From: Amanita rubescens
Lineage: Eukaryota; Basidiomycota; Agaricomycetes; Agaricales; Amanitaceae
Reading direction: 5' to 3'
DNA: 64,000 nucleotides
NCBI GenBank assembly: GCA_015039365.1
Contig: WION01000194.1
Coordinates: forward strand, 1-64,000
The position numbers and the translations under genes were made by a program. Under the pieces are notes generated by a model. That model saw only the letters and a list, made by a program, of their open reading frames with translations, was not told where the DNA came from and searched no databases. This document shows, one piece after another, positions 20,157 through 33,900 of this stretch. Every line of letters starts with the position of its first letter. The stretch's first letter is position 1.

Positions 20157-23100
20157 ATGGTGCGGACCACCGGTGCATCTGCTTCGAGTGAGTCAAATAC
20201 ACATCCATCCTCTGCCAGAATTTGATCTGCACATAATAGAAGTAGATGCAGAGCACATTGCAATGCTCAGAGAGCGACGGAAATGCAGCCATTTTCGTAT
20301 TCTCATTATTGGAGAAGCCGGTTCAGGCAAGACAACACTTCTTGAGAAGGCCTGTGGCGTAGCAGAAGGCATAAAGCCCATCATATATGATCAGTGTGGT
20401 AAGTGAGTCAGAGTTATGTACAATTGCATGCTCAACGATTTTAGGTAAAAAACTGGGACCTTCTGAAATCCCTCAAACTGAGGTGAGCCATGGCCCACTA
20501 TTAGTGATATATATAGTTTGACTTCTATTGATACACAACAAAATTGTAGAGTGGTAAACATGGTTTTGAGTATCAGATCACATATCCTGGAAGCAACTTC
20601 ATTTTCCATGTCTCTTGGGGTTTTGAAGCTGGTAAAAGTGATGAGATGGAGGATGTCTGGAAATTCATTGAGAAGCAAGCTGCAACTGGGTTGAAAAATC
20701 AACTACATGCAATTTGGTATCTTTTGATCAATTTGTTGCATGGATGGATGGTGATGATTCTCATAGGTACTGCATACCCATGGACAGTCCCCGGCCTCTT
20801 TCATCTTCAGAACTTCAGTTCTTTAGTAAAGGGACAGGGAAAGGTAAATGTCCCTATTCATCTACTTATAAAACACTGATTCATAAAATTATCAAATGTC
20901 AACTTTTAATACTTTCACAGTTCCATTGGTGGCCATATTCACCAAATTTGATGCTCAAGTAATTCAGGAATATGTGAAATTAACTGATATAGAAAATGAT
21001 AAAGATAGGTGGACCAAAGCCAAGGTCAATGCTGAAAACATTTTTCAGGAAGTCTATGTGCCTAAAGTCAGGAGTACTCTGCATCCTCCAAAAGAATGGC
21101 TACATTTGGAAGGTAGAGATGATGAATATCACCAGTTAAAAAATACATCTCATTTGGCAGATTTGGATGTATATGAGAACAATGGTCTTGATTTGACTGA
21201 GAAGACTGCTGCTACAATTGATGATGTTCAATTGCATCAACTGTTTGTTTCAACACAAATGAACAATCTTCATCTTTGTGTTCGATCTGCACTTGAGTAA
21301 GAGTAATGCTACAAATACTAATTTCAAGCTTTAACAGTCTCCAGGCATGTCCTACTAATTCAAAGTGAACCCTCAATGGACAGAGTCATGTCCACAGTCT
21401 TCAGCATGTTTCCACATTACTGGGTACATTTCCAGATCCCTCAATGTTGACACAGACAAATCTGATACATGTGAAAGGTTGACAGAAGAGTAGGTTATTT
21501 CATGCAATGAAAAATGTACTTTAAAAATGTGCAGCATGGTGTGAGTGTTTGTGTTATTCTATGATGAAATGCCTAATTAAATAACATGGATCGTGAGTAG
21601 AATGTATGTAGATCACCATTATTTTTGCATAAAGGACTTAAGATCCAACATCTTAAACAGCATGATGAAACAATTGTGAGTAGCTCATATCCTTTCTGTG
21701 CCAGCTCTGATGCCATTGATGACAGGAAGTAAGAGGCTTGAATATTCAAGGGTTTCAGTGAACTCTAACCTCATTACAAAATAGGAGGTGGGGACACTCC
21801 ACTGTTACTGCCAATCTCAGAACATTTCATACCATGACAAGCAGAGAGTGAGTAAAACTGATTCTTTATTATCAGGCAAATACTAATTCTTGGGTTATTA
21901 ACAGGATGTGAGCAACACTAGACCTTTACCACATCATATTTACTAAATTGCTAACAGAGAGTGGGTGATTGTCTACTTTTCTGCCTGGAAGATAGCATCA
22001 CTGGCATTCTTGTATGATTAGCAATTTGTGGGTGATCACTGGAGTTTCTGTCAGCTTCCATCTTACCTTGCCATGGTGGGCAGCATGTTAGTGCACCATG
22101 TTTCTTCAGATGATAGGCTTATCTCATTTCATCTTATGACCAGCAGAGAGTGAGTGAAAACTGCACTTACAAAGAGCCCTTTCATGCCAAAACAAACAGA
22201 AGGTAAATCTTTTTTCTTTCTCATCAATATCCTTGCCAATTTCACCCTATGGATATCAGTTTGTGAGTGACATTACCCTGCATTCCTTCAAGTATTTACA
22301 TCATGGCCCACAACTGGCAGTTTGTATGTGACACAACTTTCTCATCCCATTATATTTTATTGCATGGTCAGCAGAAAGCAAGTGATGTCACATTATACAG
22401 TCTTGTCTCATGTTGTCTTATGATTCACTTTAGAGAGTAAGTGGCCCTTCTGGCCCTCTTCATATTTTATGCCATGACATGCAGGAAGTGAGCATACTTT
22501 TTATGCAATGAAGTCTGAACTCATACCATCATCAATAGAGGGTGAGTGTACTGAAATTGTTCCTGATTGACAGTCCTGCTACACCTCATCACCCAGAAAG
22601 TGAGTAGTGGTGTAGTTTTTATTTTCTAAGGCAGTCACACCATGCCTTTCACCTCATGGCTAACAGAGAGCAAGTAGCAATATACTTTAGTTGATACAGT
22701 TCATCATTCTTATCTCACAAACCACAGGAAGTGAGAGATCTACTTTTTTTATCTGCAAGGTATTCCTGAGCTCAAGCCACAACTAACAGCTTGTGAGTGA
22801 TTTACAGCCAGACAGTATCATAACATCACATCCTATATAACAGGAGGTATGAGTTGTTGCACTACTTTCAGTAGGCTACATATCTCATCCAGCAACTACA
22901 GAGAGTAAGTGACATTGCAATTCTGCCAGACAGCATGTAATTTCATCTTATGGTAATCAGAGAGTGAGTGGCATTACACACTCCTGCCTGCCAGGTATCT
23001 GATCTTATCCTACAATCAACAGAAAGTGAGTGATGCTACACTTTTTCAAACTTAGCATCCTGAAATGAATTCAATAGCAAGTGAGTTCAAGGTTTATTTA

Positions 23101-23671
23101 TTGCCTATGATTTATTTTAAAATATATACATAGATTGTACATAATTCTCACACAGTTGTCAACTTGTTCCTGATAAAACTTTATAGGTAAGAAATGGTAG
23201 TACACTATGTGACATACTGATCTCCATATTAGCTTGTATGTTTACTGCTGTGTTGGACTTTGAGTTCAAGTTTAATCTTATCCCCCTCTTCTTCAGTTTG
23301 CTCTTTTCACTTTGTTTGGAGGCCAATCAGCCAGGCCTTCAGTGAAGTTTTCAGTAACTGTAAGAATTATCATTACTTCCATGACAGACATGTAATATTT
23401 CTGTAACCAGCCTACAGCCTGCCAAGTATTAGTTGGTAATGTTGGGTATTTCATCTGTTTCCTAGGCTAACACCCCAAAGCAATCAATGTCATTGCCACA
23501 CTATCATTCCAAGTAATGAAGCCATTCCAGGAATCCATTATGGATGCCTTGGAACAGTTTAAGAGATGGAACCATGTGGAAAAATTGAAAACTCAGATCA
23601 CCTCTGAGTCTATACCCACTGACCACACAGAGTTAATCAAATTCCTCTATCTTCAGATCATCTGTATATGA
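20157..23671 (+). CDS. G-domain GTPase, Agaricomycete family, with micro-exon array
   Basis: ATG 20157, then several short introns. Exon 2 has the P-loop IIGEAGSGKTTLLEKACGV. Exon 4 has FIFHVSWGFEAGKSDEMEDV, the G3-like segment of the family. It ends with LHAIW and splices to YCIPMDSPRPLSSSEL. The next exon has the G4 motif TKFD (VPLVAIFTKFDAQ). It runs through LTEKTAATIDDVQLHQLFV to RSALE; after an intron (about 21294-21344) comes HVLLIQSEPSMDRVMSTVF ending FPHYW. The likely 3' exon is at about 23481-23671 (AINVIATLSFQVMKPFQES, then helices to the stop). Between 21420 and 23480 lies the micro-exon array described separately. G1, G3 and G4 support GTP binding. The family is abundant in mushrooms with no assigned function. 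The 3' exon linkage and the whole middle are inference. The locus is almost CpG-free. Confidence 0.65.
21535..23235 (+). repeat. Regular array of putative 3-nt exons separated by ~56-nt introns
   Basis: From 21726 to 23080 there are 24 successive YAG-NNN-GT sites, with the triplet (one hexamer) exactly between acceptor- and donor-like signals. Triplets start at 21726, 21785, 21845, 21905, 21958, 22022 (6 nt), 22084, 22147, 22200, 22260, 22321, 22375, 22434, 22485, 22539, 22597, 22667, 22728, 22790, 22844, 22902, 22961, 23023 and 23078. Spacing is 51-70 bp, mean about 59. Donors are GTGAGT, GTAAGT or close variants; two are GCAAGT (22378, 22670). The triplets are mostly aga, gaa, aaa or ttt. 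Similar but longer candidates precede (21535, 6 nt; 21661, 15 nt) and one more triplet follows at 23233. The intervening DNA is only loosely similar from unit to unit. Splicing is not proven. Confidence 0.7.
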
Positions 23672-24330: not shown

Positions 24331-25380
24331 TAGTGCTTCAAAGTCCAGTTACAGAGACCAAACATAACCAGTTATGTAACCAGAAAAGACTGGAAAAGAC
24401 TGGAAATTAGTCCCTGGTTAAGTCAATTTTGTGTTAGACTGGTTACAGGTTATGATCATTTCAAAACAATCATATGTAAGACCAAAAAAGACTGGTTATA
24501 ACCAGTTATAACCAGTCTTTTGCAACTGTTCTGCACTCAATAACATGACTGGTGTATTCTAGATGTTATCAGCTTCATAATTGCTCTGGGATCAAGGAAA
24601 ACAGTTGAGAAATGAGTGAGATACAGTCAAAATAAGTTTAGACGATGGGCTAGTATGTCATATGTCACAATTATTGATTTTCAGAGCTCACTGACCACCT
24701 AATCCATAAAATATCATGGTACATACCATCAAACACTTCCTAACCCTCAGTTATTGAATTAGATGGCCAAGAGTTGGCCAATGAGAGAGTGCCAAAGAGA
24801 GTGCCAAAGAGAGTGCCAAAGAGAGTGCCAAAGAGAGTGCCAAAGAGAGCACCAAAGAGAGTGACACAGGCTCAGCCACACAGCTGAGTCCTGTTGGAAT
24901 ACTAATGAGATGATTTTGTGAGCACACCACTGTTTTTGATATTGGGGCACACAGATGTTCTGACCCTTTTTCATTTTTGTACTATTGTTAACTGTTAACT
25001 GTTAACTTGTGTAATTACAGTAGATAATGCATCATTCTGCTCTCTCTGGCTGACTCTGCCCATTGCAGTGTTGTGATCAATAGAGCATTTTCCTATTTTT
25101 TTTTGATGATTAGGACATTGACATGTAGGATAATCTGAAAATAATATTCTGCCCATTGCAGTGTCATGATCAGCAGAATATTTTCCTATTTTTTTCATGA
25201 TTAATTTCATAGCTCCAGTAAGACCACATCCCATATATCCTCACACACTCTATGCAGAGACTCTTCATCCTATGGCCAGTCTAGACCAGTCCAGACTGGT
25301 CATGTAACCAGTTAAGGTTACAGATTACACCCAAAAAAGGCAAAAAGACCCTGAGACCGGACTGGACTTTAAAATACTAC
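24330..25380. mobile_element. Non-autonomous DNA transposon (MITE-like), ~1.05 kb
   Basis: The left end, 24330-24349, reads gtagtgcttcaaagtccagt. The reverse complement of the right end (25361-25380) reads gtagtattttaaagtccagt, giving inverted terminal repeats with about 17 of 20 matches. Subterminal DNA is rich in further inverted motifs, including a near-perfect hairpin at 24485-24521 (actggttataaccag core) and ccagtctagaccagtccag near 25285. No transposase coding sequence is visible. The interior has a 12-bp minisatellite and a duplicated ~58-bp segment (25056-25113 and 25149-25205). I could not define the target-site duplication. Confidence 0.55.
24783..24866. repeat. 12-bp minisatellite, about 6-7 units
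   Basis: Tandem copies of gagagtgccaaa, the last two diverged. It lies inside the putative transposon. Confidence 0.85.
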
Positions 25381-26625: not shown

Positions 26626-26736
26626 TCTGTTGGGAGTCCCTTTTTGGGGTCGTTGAAGAGGTATTTAAGGGTTTCGCTTTCGACAGTTTGCATAGCTCAA
26701 CTTGCAGCTTCTTCAGAAATATACCAAAAAAGCGAA

Positions 26737-28007
26737 ATGACTAACGAAGTCATCAGTCAAGCATTACCAGGTAAAATAAATTCTTACAATTTGTTTGTGC
26801 ATTCTAACGTGGCCATTGCTTGCGCGCAGTCCCAACTGCATCACCAGGAACCGCTGACATTGTCGGCTTTGGGTTTACCGGCGTTATCATCATACGCAAT
26901 TCTGTCGACCTCCAGGCCAGATCCATCATTGCCAACTTTGGTTACAACGCAGGTGGATGGCGCGTAGAGAAGCATGTTCGTCTCCTCGGAGACACCACAG
27001 GCAACCGCGCCACTGACGTTATTGGGTTCGGCGAGAATGGAATTTATGTCTCCGTCAACAACGGGAGAAACTCATTCCAGGAGCCAAAATTTGTCCTCGC
27101 AGATTTCGCGTATGCTGCTGGAGGATGGCGCGTGGAGAAGCATATTCGCTTTGTTGCTGACATCAGGAAGATAGGACGCGTTGATGTTGTAGGCTTCGGT
27201 AATGCAGGCATACTGGTTTCGTTCAACAATGGTAGTGGCGGATTTGACCCTGCTAAACTTGCGCTCAACAACTTCGGTTACGACCAAGGATGGAGGCTAG
27301 ATAGGCATCTGCGTTTCCTCGCTGATGTGACTGGTAATGGGCTCCTGGATGTTGTTGGATTCGGAGAAAACCATGTTTACACCGCTCGTAACAACGGCAA
27401 CGGCACCTTCCAGCCTGCTGCGCCCGTTATTAACGACTTCACCATTGGTGCAGGTGGATGGGAGATCGACAAACACCCCCGTATTGTCGCAGATCTTACT
27501 GGTGATGGAAGAGCCGATGTCCTTGGTTTCGGATACGCGGGCGTTTACGTCTCTCTCAACAATGGCAGTGGAGAATTCGGACCCATCAAAGTGCACGCCA
27601 ACTTTTCGTACGCACAAGGATGGCGCGTCGATAAACACCCGAGGTTCATAGCTGACCTTACGGGCAAGAAGCGGGGGGATATTGTCGGTTTTGGGGATGC
27701 AGGAGTATACGTGTCACTCAACAACGGCGATGGCACATTCCAGCCTGCCAAACTAGTTGTCGAGAACTTTGGATATAATACAGGCGGATGGCGTGTTGAG
27801 AAACATTTGCGTTTTGTTGTTGACTTGACGGGCAGTGGAACCGCGGATATTATCGGCTTTGGAGAGGACGCAGTGTGGGTTTCATATAATGATGGGAATG
27901 GGAGCTTTGGTGCGGTTCAGAAGATTACTGGTGTCTTTGGGTATAATGGTGGGGAATGGGCATTAGATAAAACCGTTCGCTATGTTGCGAACCTTTACCG
28001 TATTTGA
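26737..28007 (+). CDS. Seven-bladed FG-GAP beta-propeller lectin (PVL-like)
   Basis: Two exons. A short first exon (ATG 26737, MTNEVISQALP) splices over an intron of about 60 nt ending GCGCAG to VPTASPGTADIVGFG. The mature protein is about 400 residues. It has seven repeats with the pattern D-V/I-x-GFG-x-x-GVYVS-x-NNG, each followed by GG/QGW and a KH-R core. Several repeats carry a Ca-binding loop such as DLTGDGRAD, DVTGNGLLD or DLTGSGTAD. Size, blade count and repeat text match the Psathyrella velutina lectin family, known to bind N-acetylglucosamine and sialylated glycans. No signal peptide is present, so it is probably cytosolic, as are many mushroom defence lectins. The glycan target is inferred from the family. 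Confidence 0.85.
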
Positions 28008-28215
28008 ACTACCTGTACAATACTAGTTCCGAGGAGGACTCTGTCAAAGTAAAATAAAATAAAAACCTCATACAAAATTGGCGTGGTGTGTAACTACCTG
28101 GCTCTCGGCCCCGGTCTTCAAAACGAACATGATCTCGTTCAACAATCGCTATCGAAGTGAGACAGGCGCATCTTACTCCAACGCGTCTGTCTTGCTGTCA
28201 GAAATCTATATAAGC

Positions 28216-30949: not shown

Positions 30950-33900
30950 TTAGCCAGGTACGTAACAACCAGCCCAATCACGACCAATCTTGCAATCTTG
31001 GAAGTTAATGAAGGCAGACGCTTTGCGGGAAATGATGATGATGCTGTATGGACAAGCCAGCTCTGGCACCCACATTAGCCGATAACCGCCGGGGACCGAA
31101 AGGATCCAGCGTGTTTGGGTATTAGTCCAAGCAGGGTAAACATGACCTACAATGGACAACTGTGGAGATTCTTCATTTGTAATGCAGGGGCTATTAGTCG
31201 GGGAGGCAATGGAATTAGCTGAATGTGTGTGAAAATTGGGTGCCACAGGCCCAGCCGCAGTTGAAGCATCCCACACCCATACAGAGTTGTCGTATGAGCC
31301 GGAGACAATGCGCATCCCATCAGGGGAGAAGGCAACGGACCGGATGGGCCCGGTGTGGCCATTGAGCGCCTTCAGCTCAGCCCCAGTCGAGGCATCCCAC
31401 ACCCGCACTGACTTGTCATATGAGCCAGAGACAATGCGCATGCCATCAGGGGAGAAGGCGACCGAATAGACGGAGTCGGTGTGGCCATTGAGCACCTTTA
31501 GCTCAGTCCCAGTCGAGGCATCCCACACCCGCACTGACTTGTCGAATGAGCCAGAGACGATGCGCATGCTATCAGGGGAGAAGACGACAGAATAGACAGT
31601 CTCGGTGTGGCCATTGAGCACCTTCAGCTCAGCCCCAGTCGAGGCATCCCACACCCGCATTGACTTGTCATATGAGCTGGAGACTATGCGCATGCCGTCA
31701 GGGGAGAAGGCGACCGAATGGACGGAGTCAGTGTGGCCATTGAGCACCTTCAGCTCAGCCCCAGTAGAGGCATCCCACACTCGCACTGACTTGTCATATG
31801 AGCAGGAGACTATGCATGTGCCGTCAGGGGAGAAGGCGACCGAACAGACGGACCTGGTGTGGCCATTGAGCACCTTCAGCTCGGCCCCAGTCGAGGCATC
31901 CCACACCCGCACTGAGTTGTCATCTGAGCCGGAGACGATACGCGTGCCATCAGGGGAGAAGGCGACCGAATAGAGGAAGTCGGTGTGGCCATTGAGCACC
32001 TTCAGCTCAGCCCCAGTTGAGGCATCCCACACCTGCACTGACTTATCATATGAGCCGGAGACAATGCGCATCCCATCAGGGGAGAAGGCAACGGACCGGA
32101 TGGGCCCGGTGTGGCCATTGAGCGCCTTCAGCTCAGCCCCAGTCGAGGCATCCCACACCCGCACTGACTCGTCATATGAGCCAGAGACGATGCGCGTACC
32201 ATCAGGGGAGAAGGCGACAAAATGAACAGGACTGGTGTGGCCATTGAGCACCTTCAGCTCAGCCCCAGTCGAGGCATCCCACACCCACACTGAGTTGTCT
32301 CCTGAGCCAGAGACAATGCGCATGCTATCAGGGGAGAAGGCAACGGAAAAGACAGGCTCAGTGTGGCCATTGGGCACCTTCAGCTCAGCTCCAGTTGAGG
32401 CATCCCACACCCGCATTGACTTGTCATATGAGCCAGAGACGATGCGCGTGCCGTCAGGGGAGAAGGCGACCGAATAGATGGAGTCAGTGTGGCCATTGAG
32501 TACCTTGAGCTCAGCCCCAGTCGAGGCATCCCACACTCGCACTGACTTGTCTTCTGAGCCGGAGACGATGCGCGTGCTGTCAGGGGAGAAGGCGACCGAA
32601 AAGACAGACCCAGTGTGACCATCGAGTACCTTCAGCTCAGCCCCAGTCAAGGCATCCCACACCCGTACTGGCTTGTCTAATGAGCCGGAGATAATGCGCG
32701 TGCCGTCAGGGGAGAAGGCAACGGAACAGACAAGCTTGATGTGACCACTGAGCACCTTCAGCTCAGCCCCAGTCGAAGCATCCCACACCCGCACTGACTT
32801 GTCTTCTGAGCCGGAGACGATGCGTGTGCCGTCAGAGGAGAAAGCAATCGAACACACAGGCTCGGTGTGGCCATTGAGCACCTTCAGCTCAGCCCCAGTC
32901 GAGGCATCCCACACCCGCACTGAGTTGTCGAATGAGCCAGAGACGATGCGCGTGCTGTCAGAAGAAAAGGCAACAGATCGGTGGGTATTTCCAGTTCGTA
33001 TAGCCATCAGTGGCACATCAGTGGCCTTCCTATGAGTGAAGGAAGGGATGTGAGGGAACTGCTCTCTCCACTGTTGAGAGAGAGTGGACCCTGCGGACCA
33101 GGTTGCCAATGCTGAAATGTACAGATGCGGTGTAGACAAAGCTGGTGGATTTCCAGTGAAGTAGGTAGCAAAATTAGCTGCTTCAGCAATGTTGGCGGCA
33201 AGCTCGGATTGTCTGTTCGCGTTCTGATCGACCATCGTTAGAAACTGTGCATCCAAAGTGACAATATTCGCACCTTCAAGACCCACTCACGCGCACGTTG
33301 AAGCATTGTGGTACACTGACCGCTGGATCCAAGTAGGTTCATGGCCTCAATCCAGAACAGAATGCGGATACGGAGAAAGTCTGTGATACGATCTCTGAGA
33401 TCCGCGCCATCGGCGTTCGTTTCATCGGTCTGGGCCAAATGATAAGCCCAGTACCGAGAAGCGTACCTCAGGACGGCGCTGATATTGGTGTCAATCCGCT
33501 GCGTCAGCTCTGGGTCCTCGGCATCAAGTACAAACGACGATGGCATGTCACCGATATTGAAACGTAGCGACTTCATGACATCGAAGCAACGTTTTGTGAG
33601 GAGGGTATGGTGGTGGGCCTCGTCAATTGAGAGGGAAATCCGACGACCGTCAAGCTCGAACGTTGATCGTGTCTCAGTCTGACTGAAGATAAAGTCGGGA
33701 AATGATGTGTGGTACCAAAGGACCTGGTCATCCTTGCAATAGAGAACTGCATAAAGGCCATCCAAGACAGCGATCGCAGTTTCATCAGATTCAGAGATGA
33801 GGGTAGCAGCAAGAGATGTCGATGTGCGTTCAAATGTACAGAGGAAGGTGTGAAGGATGCGCAGACGAGAGTTGAAGAGGTCGTCGTCGTCAAAGCCAGA

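Follow-up and report, generated by a model that had tools for sequence, protein, structure and literature searches.

Can a stretch of protein be encoded by dozens of consecutive exons of a single codon each? The question is raised by a GTPase-like gene of Amanita rubescens at positions 20157–23671 of the 64,000-nucleotide stretch analysed here (the window; part of contig WION01000194.1, our C106, in an assembly of 75.7 Mb). Behind the G domain of this gene, acceptor, triplet and donor follow one another through 21535–23235, and the first-pass annotation of this DNA had proposed exons of 3 nt, with one long intron or recursive splicing as alternatives. We conclude, with a probability of about 95%, that this part of the gene codes for protein as an array of single-codon exons, and that it is very probably spliced as such. 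Real single-codon exons are supported by apparent spliced products of the window gene (P0002) and of a sister gene (P0008), conservation between alleles, the lack of stop triplets and a 3-nt spacing that recurs genome-wide.

Single-codon exons of the window gene

The gene begins with a P-loop G domain in ordinary exons that run to the residues FPHYW (21423), continues with the array and closes with three C-terminal coding exons. Between the G domain and the C-terminal part (FALFTLFGG..), 40 residues (VDRRHGNHDETIEE..RRKQIL) are specified by 29 micro-exons, of which 23 measure 3 nt, four 6 nt and one each 12 and 15 nt. Every triplet is one codon, in the same frame as both flanking parts, and the exons next to the array end and begin in phase 0, as they do, judged by eye, in the paralog L039.

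This structure is read from P0002, a protein of 265 residues from a public 1,143-bp contig (source JGI) that was found by protein search; the triplet chain had been predicted from the DNA and used as a search query before P0002 was seen. Spliced alignment to the window identifies 264 of the 265 residues in 35 blocks over 2.7 kb, among them blocks of exactly the micro-exon lengths given above, with GT or GC donors and AG acceptors. The product accordingly contains 29 micro-exons of at most 30 nt, seen as protein and not as complementary DNA (cDNA) letters, and we infer that it arises by splicing. Together with its anchors, the array part aligns at 54 of 54 residues with a score of 295.8, 25 standard deviations above 60 shuffled controls (131.6 ± 6.6, maximum 150.7, at most 33 identical residues), while the 40 array residues score 218.7 at the array and no more than 41.5 when aligned to any of 21 stretches elsewhere in the window.

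The second allele of the gene lies on contig C650, and its deposited model P0001 (F5887DRAFT_1280464) is the best protein match. Inside the array, P0002 differs from the DNA-based prediction in lacking the K at 22200, in having QR for R twice, at NAGNAG acceptors, and in an additional I; outside the array the differences are one residue, the removal of a 48-nt intron from the G-domain part and the additional exon PTACQVLV. These 48 nt (21113–21160) are open in frame and coding in P0001, and most likely are an intron because they are absent from P0002. The count of 24 triplets and one hexamer in the first-pass annotation has to be corrected, since P0002 gives 28 micro-exons in 21535–23235 (23 of 3 nt, four of 6 nt and one of 15 nt), to which the 12-nt micro-exon just upstream is added. 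What had been presumed to be the last exon is followed by two further coding exons, with the stop TGA at 23669, whereas the reading phase starting EERDRQFHRK proves to be the right one.

The succession of YAG, triplet and donor is confirmed by exact counts. In 21501–23300, YAG-N{k}-GTRAGT occurs eleven times at k=3, twice at k=6, once at k=12 and at no other k from 0 to 12. Canonical splice sites flank the micro-exons, and the 30 introns that touch them have 28 GT and two GC donors, and 20 CAG, eight TAG and two AAG acceptors. Their median length is 56 nt, in keeping with the ordinary intron size claimed before, although the range is 45–110 nt and not about 48–67 nt; across the aligned genes, the medians of array introns are 56–57 nt. 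A splice-chain model with a flat exon-length prior, applied to the window and 30 other sequences (many of them alleles or paralogs, one overlapping another), called 264 exons of 3 nt, and the lengths 1, 2, 4, 5 and 8 nt did not occur in its output. Of the 200 remaining exons 141 were not multiples of 3, and many of the model's 50–140-nt exons probably represent weak-site introns that were passed over.

Comparison of the window and C650 alleles shows one change in 120 micro-exon sites, with no gap, and three in 306 splice-core sites, against 103 in 1,639 for the intron bodies (59 substitutions and 44 gap columns; p=0.008 for micro-exons and p=2.5e-5 for cores); the larger exons changed at 14 of 675. 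Summed over nine other allele or paralog pairs, the changes are 34/333 in triplets, 96/999 in cores and 529/2,873 in bodies, and triplets change less than intron bodies in six of the nine. No stop is found among 163 triplets, where base composition by position predicts 16.3, nor among 158 triplets of L039 and L041–L043, where 7.7 are expected; at the plain frequency of stop trinucleotides in the same regions (6.4%), about 10 would be expected per set.

P0008 (478 residues, 1,486-bp contig) stems from a related gene, being identical to C1:30432-34760 at 229 of 303 residues in a spliced alignment with an intron penalty and narrowed input, as also used for P0010 (below). Its array stretch falls on 40 single-codon exons of C1, 33 of them identical (36 of 46 residues overall), with a score of 79.1 against 13.2 ± 6.1 for 40 shuffles (maximum 29.0, at most 17 identical).

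Recurrence in the gene family

The single-codon exon architecture is a family-wide trait. Paired exact sites with 3-nt spacers and 30–60 bases between the sites occur 4,428 times genome-wide (both strands), whereas their reversed-pattern control never matches; the count per haploid genome is smaller, because at least some loci are represented in the assembly by both alleles. Pairs with 4-nt spacers number 3, against 66 in their own reversed control, and pairs with 2-nt spacers 6 (five on C749, one on C13), with 6 in the control. Thirty loci, several of them alleles of each other, were fetched by their G-domain exon, and 29 carry 5–13 exact 3-nt sites downstream on the sense strand. There, spacer 3 occurs 253 times, spacers 1, 2, 4 and 5 occur 0, 1, 4 and 0 times, spacer 0 five times and spacers 6, 12 and 15 occur 10, 10 and 11 times; upstream of the G-domain exon or antisense to it, the 30 loci have no 3-nt site. 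Among the best 150 of 415 G-exon candidates, 96 have a C-terminal exon match 2.3–10.4 kb downstream (median 4.1 kb), compared with 9 in a wrong-strand or wrong-side control, counted among the matches listed. Seven of nine array clusters follow a listed G exon and an eighth (C2) was confirmed by upstream reading, while for the ninth (C3:126.9k) no G domain was found in the 2.6 kb upstream (L055, C3:124300-127000). This C3 array spans 126933–131374, and a C-terminal exon match lies at C3:132482. When a 158-residue query that includes the array part of P0003 was used, none of the 150 matches listed extended through that part; the earliest begins at query residue 71, and those listed fall mainly on the last coding exon (23481–23671 in the window).

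Other arrays of the family are built of near-identical introns. On many contigs, a 62-nt intron is repeated at intervals of 65 bp (391 matches counted and about 150 listed, most of the latter in such runs); it is seen in L041–L044, and L049–L053 are of the same class. Triplet and intron diversity are 0.391 and 0.0013 in L041 (24 units) and 0.640 and 0.0087 in L042 (33 units); L042 and L044 have 43 of 49 tokens in common and differ by whole triplets, and codon vocabulary differs among five more arrays. It had been argued that a decaying satellite would conserve its whole unit. The argument fits the window array, for which Tandem Repeats Finder reports no tandem repeat inside 21535–23235 and hence no unit-wide similarity, but these other arrays do show unit-wide similarity, with near-identical bodies and yet varied triplets. 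Simple tandem duplication with even mutation does not give this pattern; homogenised introns with selected codons, one intron inserted between codons, or assembly polishing could be its source.

It is unlikely, in our view, that the arrays of this class are assembly or polishing artefacts or dead copies and not working arrays. When ten arrays were tokenised, L043 (C749:1200-6800, minus strand) held tokens of 1, 2 and 4 nt, L044 one of 4 nt, L051 tokens of 4 and 2 nt and L052 one of 4 nt. Such lengths may reflect decay, a frame change or an assembly artefact, identical repeats being hard to polish; chance sites may account for two odd tokens in L039. P0010, the sole likely spliced product of such an array, fits L034 and L023 via W F E. 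G K K E. D R E and ends inside the array, and its later array part was unmatched in the four loci tried (L034, L023, L035 and L041). Working arrays are favoured by the absence of stops among the 158 triplets and by the tokens inside L041, L042, L049, L050 and L053, which are all 3 nt. Within triplets, moreover, the bases depend on one another (z=19.7), whereas across exon boundaries they vary independently (z=-0.8), in typed and trimmed lists that leave out L043, L044, L052, the odd tokens of L039, common first codons, the last two (AAA, AAT) and part of C1, use the last 25 triplets only of L051 and enter the window hexamers as triplets. The dependence within triplets speaks for the triplet as a unit and not for translation alone, and copying of units may also be its source. 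For the same two values we rejected a candidate frame B, which reads the triplets of the homogeneous arrays one base further on, as acidic codons rich in G or C at the third position (GC3), and takes them for former contiguous coding sequence invaded by introns. A search for a contiguous copy of the joined L042 exons found none, an empty result that carries no weight.

Counter-evidence and rival explanations

The array introns look like ordinary fungal U2-type introns, with GTRAGT-like donors and a CTNAY element near the YAG acceptor; these signals speak for our reading, with reservations. GTRAGT donors are present in 39 of 71 array introns and in none of 12 other introns of the same genes (hand counts and test), and CTNAY near the acceptor in 14 of 30 and 20 of 41 array introns, against 4.3 and 6.0 in shuffles (34 of 71 in sum, about 10 expected); these counts, however, use introns set by an aligner that rewards GTRAGT-like donors, the 12 other introns include one that adjoins the 12-nt exon, and six motifs were compared, CTNAY proving the best. 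TNAY is enriched as well, TRAY and ATGAY only in C1, and neither CTAAY nor the branch point YTRAY at 6–30 nt is enriched in the array introns; CTNAY is not in excess in the 12 other introns (2 of 12, 1.6 expected). Among the allele or paralog pairs, triplets fare worse than bodies in L026/L037 (with gaps) and in L011/L012 (one triplet change), and L018/L019 shows no change. When their array-coded parts served as queries, P0008 and P0010 found only themselves, so that independent spliced products are few. From the P0002 record only the protein and the contig size are known, and we take the contig to be cDNA. In one locus, L038 (C170:52563-55943), the G-domain exon is followed by just one exact 3-nt site. 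Its apparent allele, L034, has nine in the same span.

That the P0002 contig is known by its protein only would also suit an origin of P0002 from an intronless homologue or a retrocopy, in which case the window array need not be spliced. Retrocopies occur in general, but we consider this origin very improbable. An 85-residue segment that spans the array has no contiguous copy in the assembly; it gave only four matches, two being the FALFTLFGG exon of both alleles and two weak (E 0.41). P0002 bears the window-allele residues HG, KRWNH and DHTEL, following this allele outside the array as well; the C650 allele has CGT at the H codon, and P0001 reads KRQNH and DHKKL. Another protein, P0012 (319 residues, 1,254-bp contig, 318 of 319 identical to L031), is spliced through the 12-nt exon (VTRQ) and the first codon exon (D) and then runs into the next intron (GC donor) to a stop; it reads as partly spliced or intron-retaining RNA. 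Besides, a retrocopy would itself derive from an mRNA spliced through the micro-exons.

Even less credit is due to a single intron of about 1.9 kb over a decayed satellite, its splice-like cores being relics and no micro-exon entering the mRNA. The deposited P0001, from the other allele, does omit nearly all of the array (FPHYW-VMMKQ-LFALF), and other arrays of the family are clearly repetitive. Yet for the window gene one long intron is contradicted by P0002, which holds the micro-exon residues in order; the spacing is 3, not 2 or 4, no triplet is a stop, and cores and micro-exons are kept between alleles while the bodies drift. Equally slight is the chance of recursive splicing without exons, in which the sites would serve as ratchet points for the stepwise removal of a long intron and the triplets would be lost: zero-length YAG|GTRAGT sites, possible ratchet points, lie at about 23186 in the last long array intron and at about 4140 near the end of the L039 array, but recursive splicing leaves no sequence in the mRNA whereas the triplets stay in the P0002 product, and ratchet points need spacer 0, seen five times against 253 for spacer 3 in the 30 loci.

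Gene map, mechanism and significance

The layout of the window gene is given in Table 1. A 12-nt V-x-R-x exon is readable by eye in all 13 listed loci, and since 12 nt can be read in 13 of 13 loci, the first micro-exon is not taken to be one of 4 nt. The window and C650 alleles stop aligning from about 23845 on. Downstream lie a 12-bp minisatellite (AGAGAGTGCCAA, 6.7 copies, 24784–24863), a gene with repeated GDVVGFGxxGVYVS-like units at about 26735–28008, which may be FG-GAP/VCBS-like, and about 13.5 tandem copies of a 126-bp unit (31252–32955, 85% matches), presumably akin to a WD40-repeat gene on the minus strand.

Table 1. Features of the window gene (window coordinates; micro-exons and C-terminal exons from the spliced alignment of P0002 to the window unless the row says otherwise)
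Feature	Position	Strand	Basis
5' exons, ATG, P-loop GEAGSGKT and most of G domain	20157..20843	+	by eye, P0001 as guide
5' exon pieces	~20157-20187, to 20398, 20445-20482, 20550-20716, 20767-20843	+	exon 1/2 junction uncertain
G-domain exon VPLVAIFTKFD..LHLE	20921..21112	+	P0002 alignment from 20929 on; homologs
Exon DLDVYENNG..RSAL	21161..21296	+	P0002 alignment
Exon EHVLL..FPHYW, ending phase 0	21345..21423	+	P0002 alignment
12-nt micro-exon VDRR	21478..21489	+	P0002 alignment
6-nt micro-exon HG	21535..21540	+	P0002 alignment
Single-codon exon N	21601..21603	+	P0002 alignment
15-nt micro-exon HDETI	21661..21675	+	P0002 alignment
Single-codon exon E	21726..21728	+	P0002 alignment
Single-codon exon E	21785..21787	+	P0002 alignment
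6-nt micro-exon QR; AAGCAG acceptor, first site used	21842..21847	+	P0002 alignment
Single-codon exon D	21905..21907	+	P0002 alignment
Single-codon exon R	21958..21960	+	P0002 alignment
6-nt micro-exon QF	22022..22027	+	P0002 alignment
Single-codon exon H	22084..22086	+	P0002 alignment
6-nt micro-exon QR; CAGCAG acceptor, first site used	22144..22149	+	P0002 alignment
Candidate triplet AAG (K), splice-like flanks, absent from P0002	22200..22202	+	sequence and P0002 alignment
Single-codon exon F	22260..22262	+	P0002 alignment
Single-codon exon F	22321..22323	+	P0002 alignment
Single-codon exon K; CAGCAG acceptor, second site used; GC donor	22375..22377	+	P0002 alignment
Single-codon exon R	22434..22436	+	P0002 alignment
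Single-codon exon E	22485..22487	+	P0002 alignment
Single-codon exon R	22539..22541	+	P0002 alignment
Single-codon exon K	22597..22599	+	P0002 alignment
Single-codon exon R; GC donor	22667..22669	+	P0002 alignment
Single-codon exon E	22728..22730	+	P0002 alignment
Single-codon exon L	22790..22792	+	P0002 alignment
Single-codon exon E	22844..22846	+	P0002 alignment
Single-codon exon R	22902..22904	+	P0002 alignment
Single-codon exon R	22961..22963	+	P0002 alignment
Single-codon exon K	23023..23025	+	P0002 alignment
Single-codon exon Q	23078..23080	+	P0002 alignment
Single-codon exon I	23134..23136	+	P0002 alignment
Single-codon exon L	23233..23235	+	P0002 alignment
Exon FALFTLFGGQSARPSVKFSVT (FALFTLFGG..), starting phase 0	23297..23359	+	P0002 alignment; similar exon in paralog L039 (by eye)
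Exon PTACQVLV	23411..23435	+	P0002 alignment
Last coding exon AINVIATLSFQ..IICI, stop TGA at 23669	23481..23671	+	P0002 alignment

As to mechanism, we propose that each array intron would be recognised on its own (intron definition) and that neighbours would leave one after another, their codons joining a growing exon. Removal should be successive because 3 nt of exon are too short for spliceosome components to be bound at both ends simultaneously, and the strong intronic donors may compensate for the missing exon sequence. Length variants by exon skipping are possible, with the NAGNAG acceptors and the unused AAG at 22200 as candidates. The units of gain and loss would be an intron plus a codon, about 60–65 nt, and paralogs would therefore vary in codon number with the frame kept.

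The product of the array may be a flexible, fast-evolving linker leading into a helix. In the AlphaFold2 model of P0008 the G domain is confident, residues 316–359, inside the array-coded part, have a predicted local distance difference test score (pLDDT) below 50, and a helix at 361–382 follows and connects to the C-terminal helices. In Foldseek, the immunity-related GTPases GM4951 and IIGP1/Irga6 match best, though weakly (E 3.5e-5 to ~1e-4, template modelling score ~0.31–0.41); Pfam MMR_HSR1 stays below cut-off in P0008 and P0003 and is not listed for P0001 and P0002, and PF01926 is precomputed for some family members. A role of the family in immunity or recognition would be a guess.

The exons of schistosome micro-exon genes (MEGs) measure 6–81 nt, and SNHG14 is a small nucleolar RNA (snoRNA) host gene whose exons are not single codons. 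Like the window gene, MEGs have runs of consecutive small symmetrical exons, which make up most of the gene (up to 75% of the coding sequence) and give skipping variants, whereas their exons are longer, many of their products are secreted and the excerpts retrieved from that source describe no single-codon runs (PMC4015677). The bulk of coding sequence is micro-exonic in MEGs, compared with 120 nt of about 1.3 kb in the window gene. SNHG14 (SNORD115/116) shares with the Amanita arrays its dozens of consecutive introns in one transcript (PMC11608373). Introners, for which Pezizomycotina are named among fungi, are many copies of near-identical short introns, as is the Amanita 62-nt intron (PMC9860276); they insert in many genes, however, whereas the Amanita copies inspected stand in tandem within one gene family. 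Exons of 1–3 nt handled by the ordinary spliceosome are described for Arabidopsis APC11 (a 1-nt exon, with intron definition and removal of both introns one after another proposed; PMC4674806), plant VPS55 (a 1-nt exon with stress on GTRAGT donors, which the strong array donors recall; PMC8831610), RPS24 (three micro-exons between exons 4 and 6; PMC11162997), Drosophila homothorax and PICALM. These cases have one or few micro-exons per gene, as opposed to 23 to about 40 single-codon exons within one gene, in a large gene family, in Amanita. In open PubMed Central full texts, a scope that lies outside subscription papers and preprints, none of the matches listed described an array of consecutive single-codon exons. 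In our judgement the micro-exon is a known building block, while dozens of consecutive single-codon exons are an architecture of which we know no earlier description.

Altogether, our study indicates that a spliceosome can assemble a peptide from single-codon exons, dozens of them in a row, a finding of relevance to the recognition of the smallest exons and to the order of intron removal. Deposited annotations of the family omit this coding region: P0001 skips the array, and among 16 other deposited models eight stop before the FPH motif and eight within about 70 residues after it. Since standard gene finders and aligners would hardly see them, further such arrays may be hidden elsewhere. The combination of near-identical introns and varied codons poses a new question on the origin of such sequence. 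One answer, offered tentatively and with the odds somewhat against it, is that intron-plus-codon cassettes are a means of protein evolution, in which near-identical introns act as homology arms and codons are added, dropped or exchanged in frame. If so, a large fungal GTPase-like family would diversify its linker one amino acid at a time, as exon shuffling at the level of the codon, and the arrays of near-identical 62-nt introns with free codons, each with a vocabulary of its own, would be fresh products of this process.

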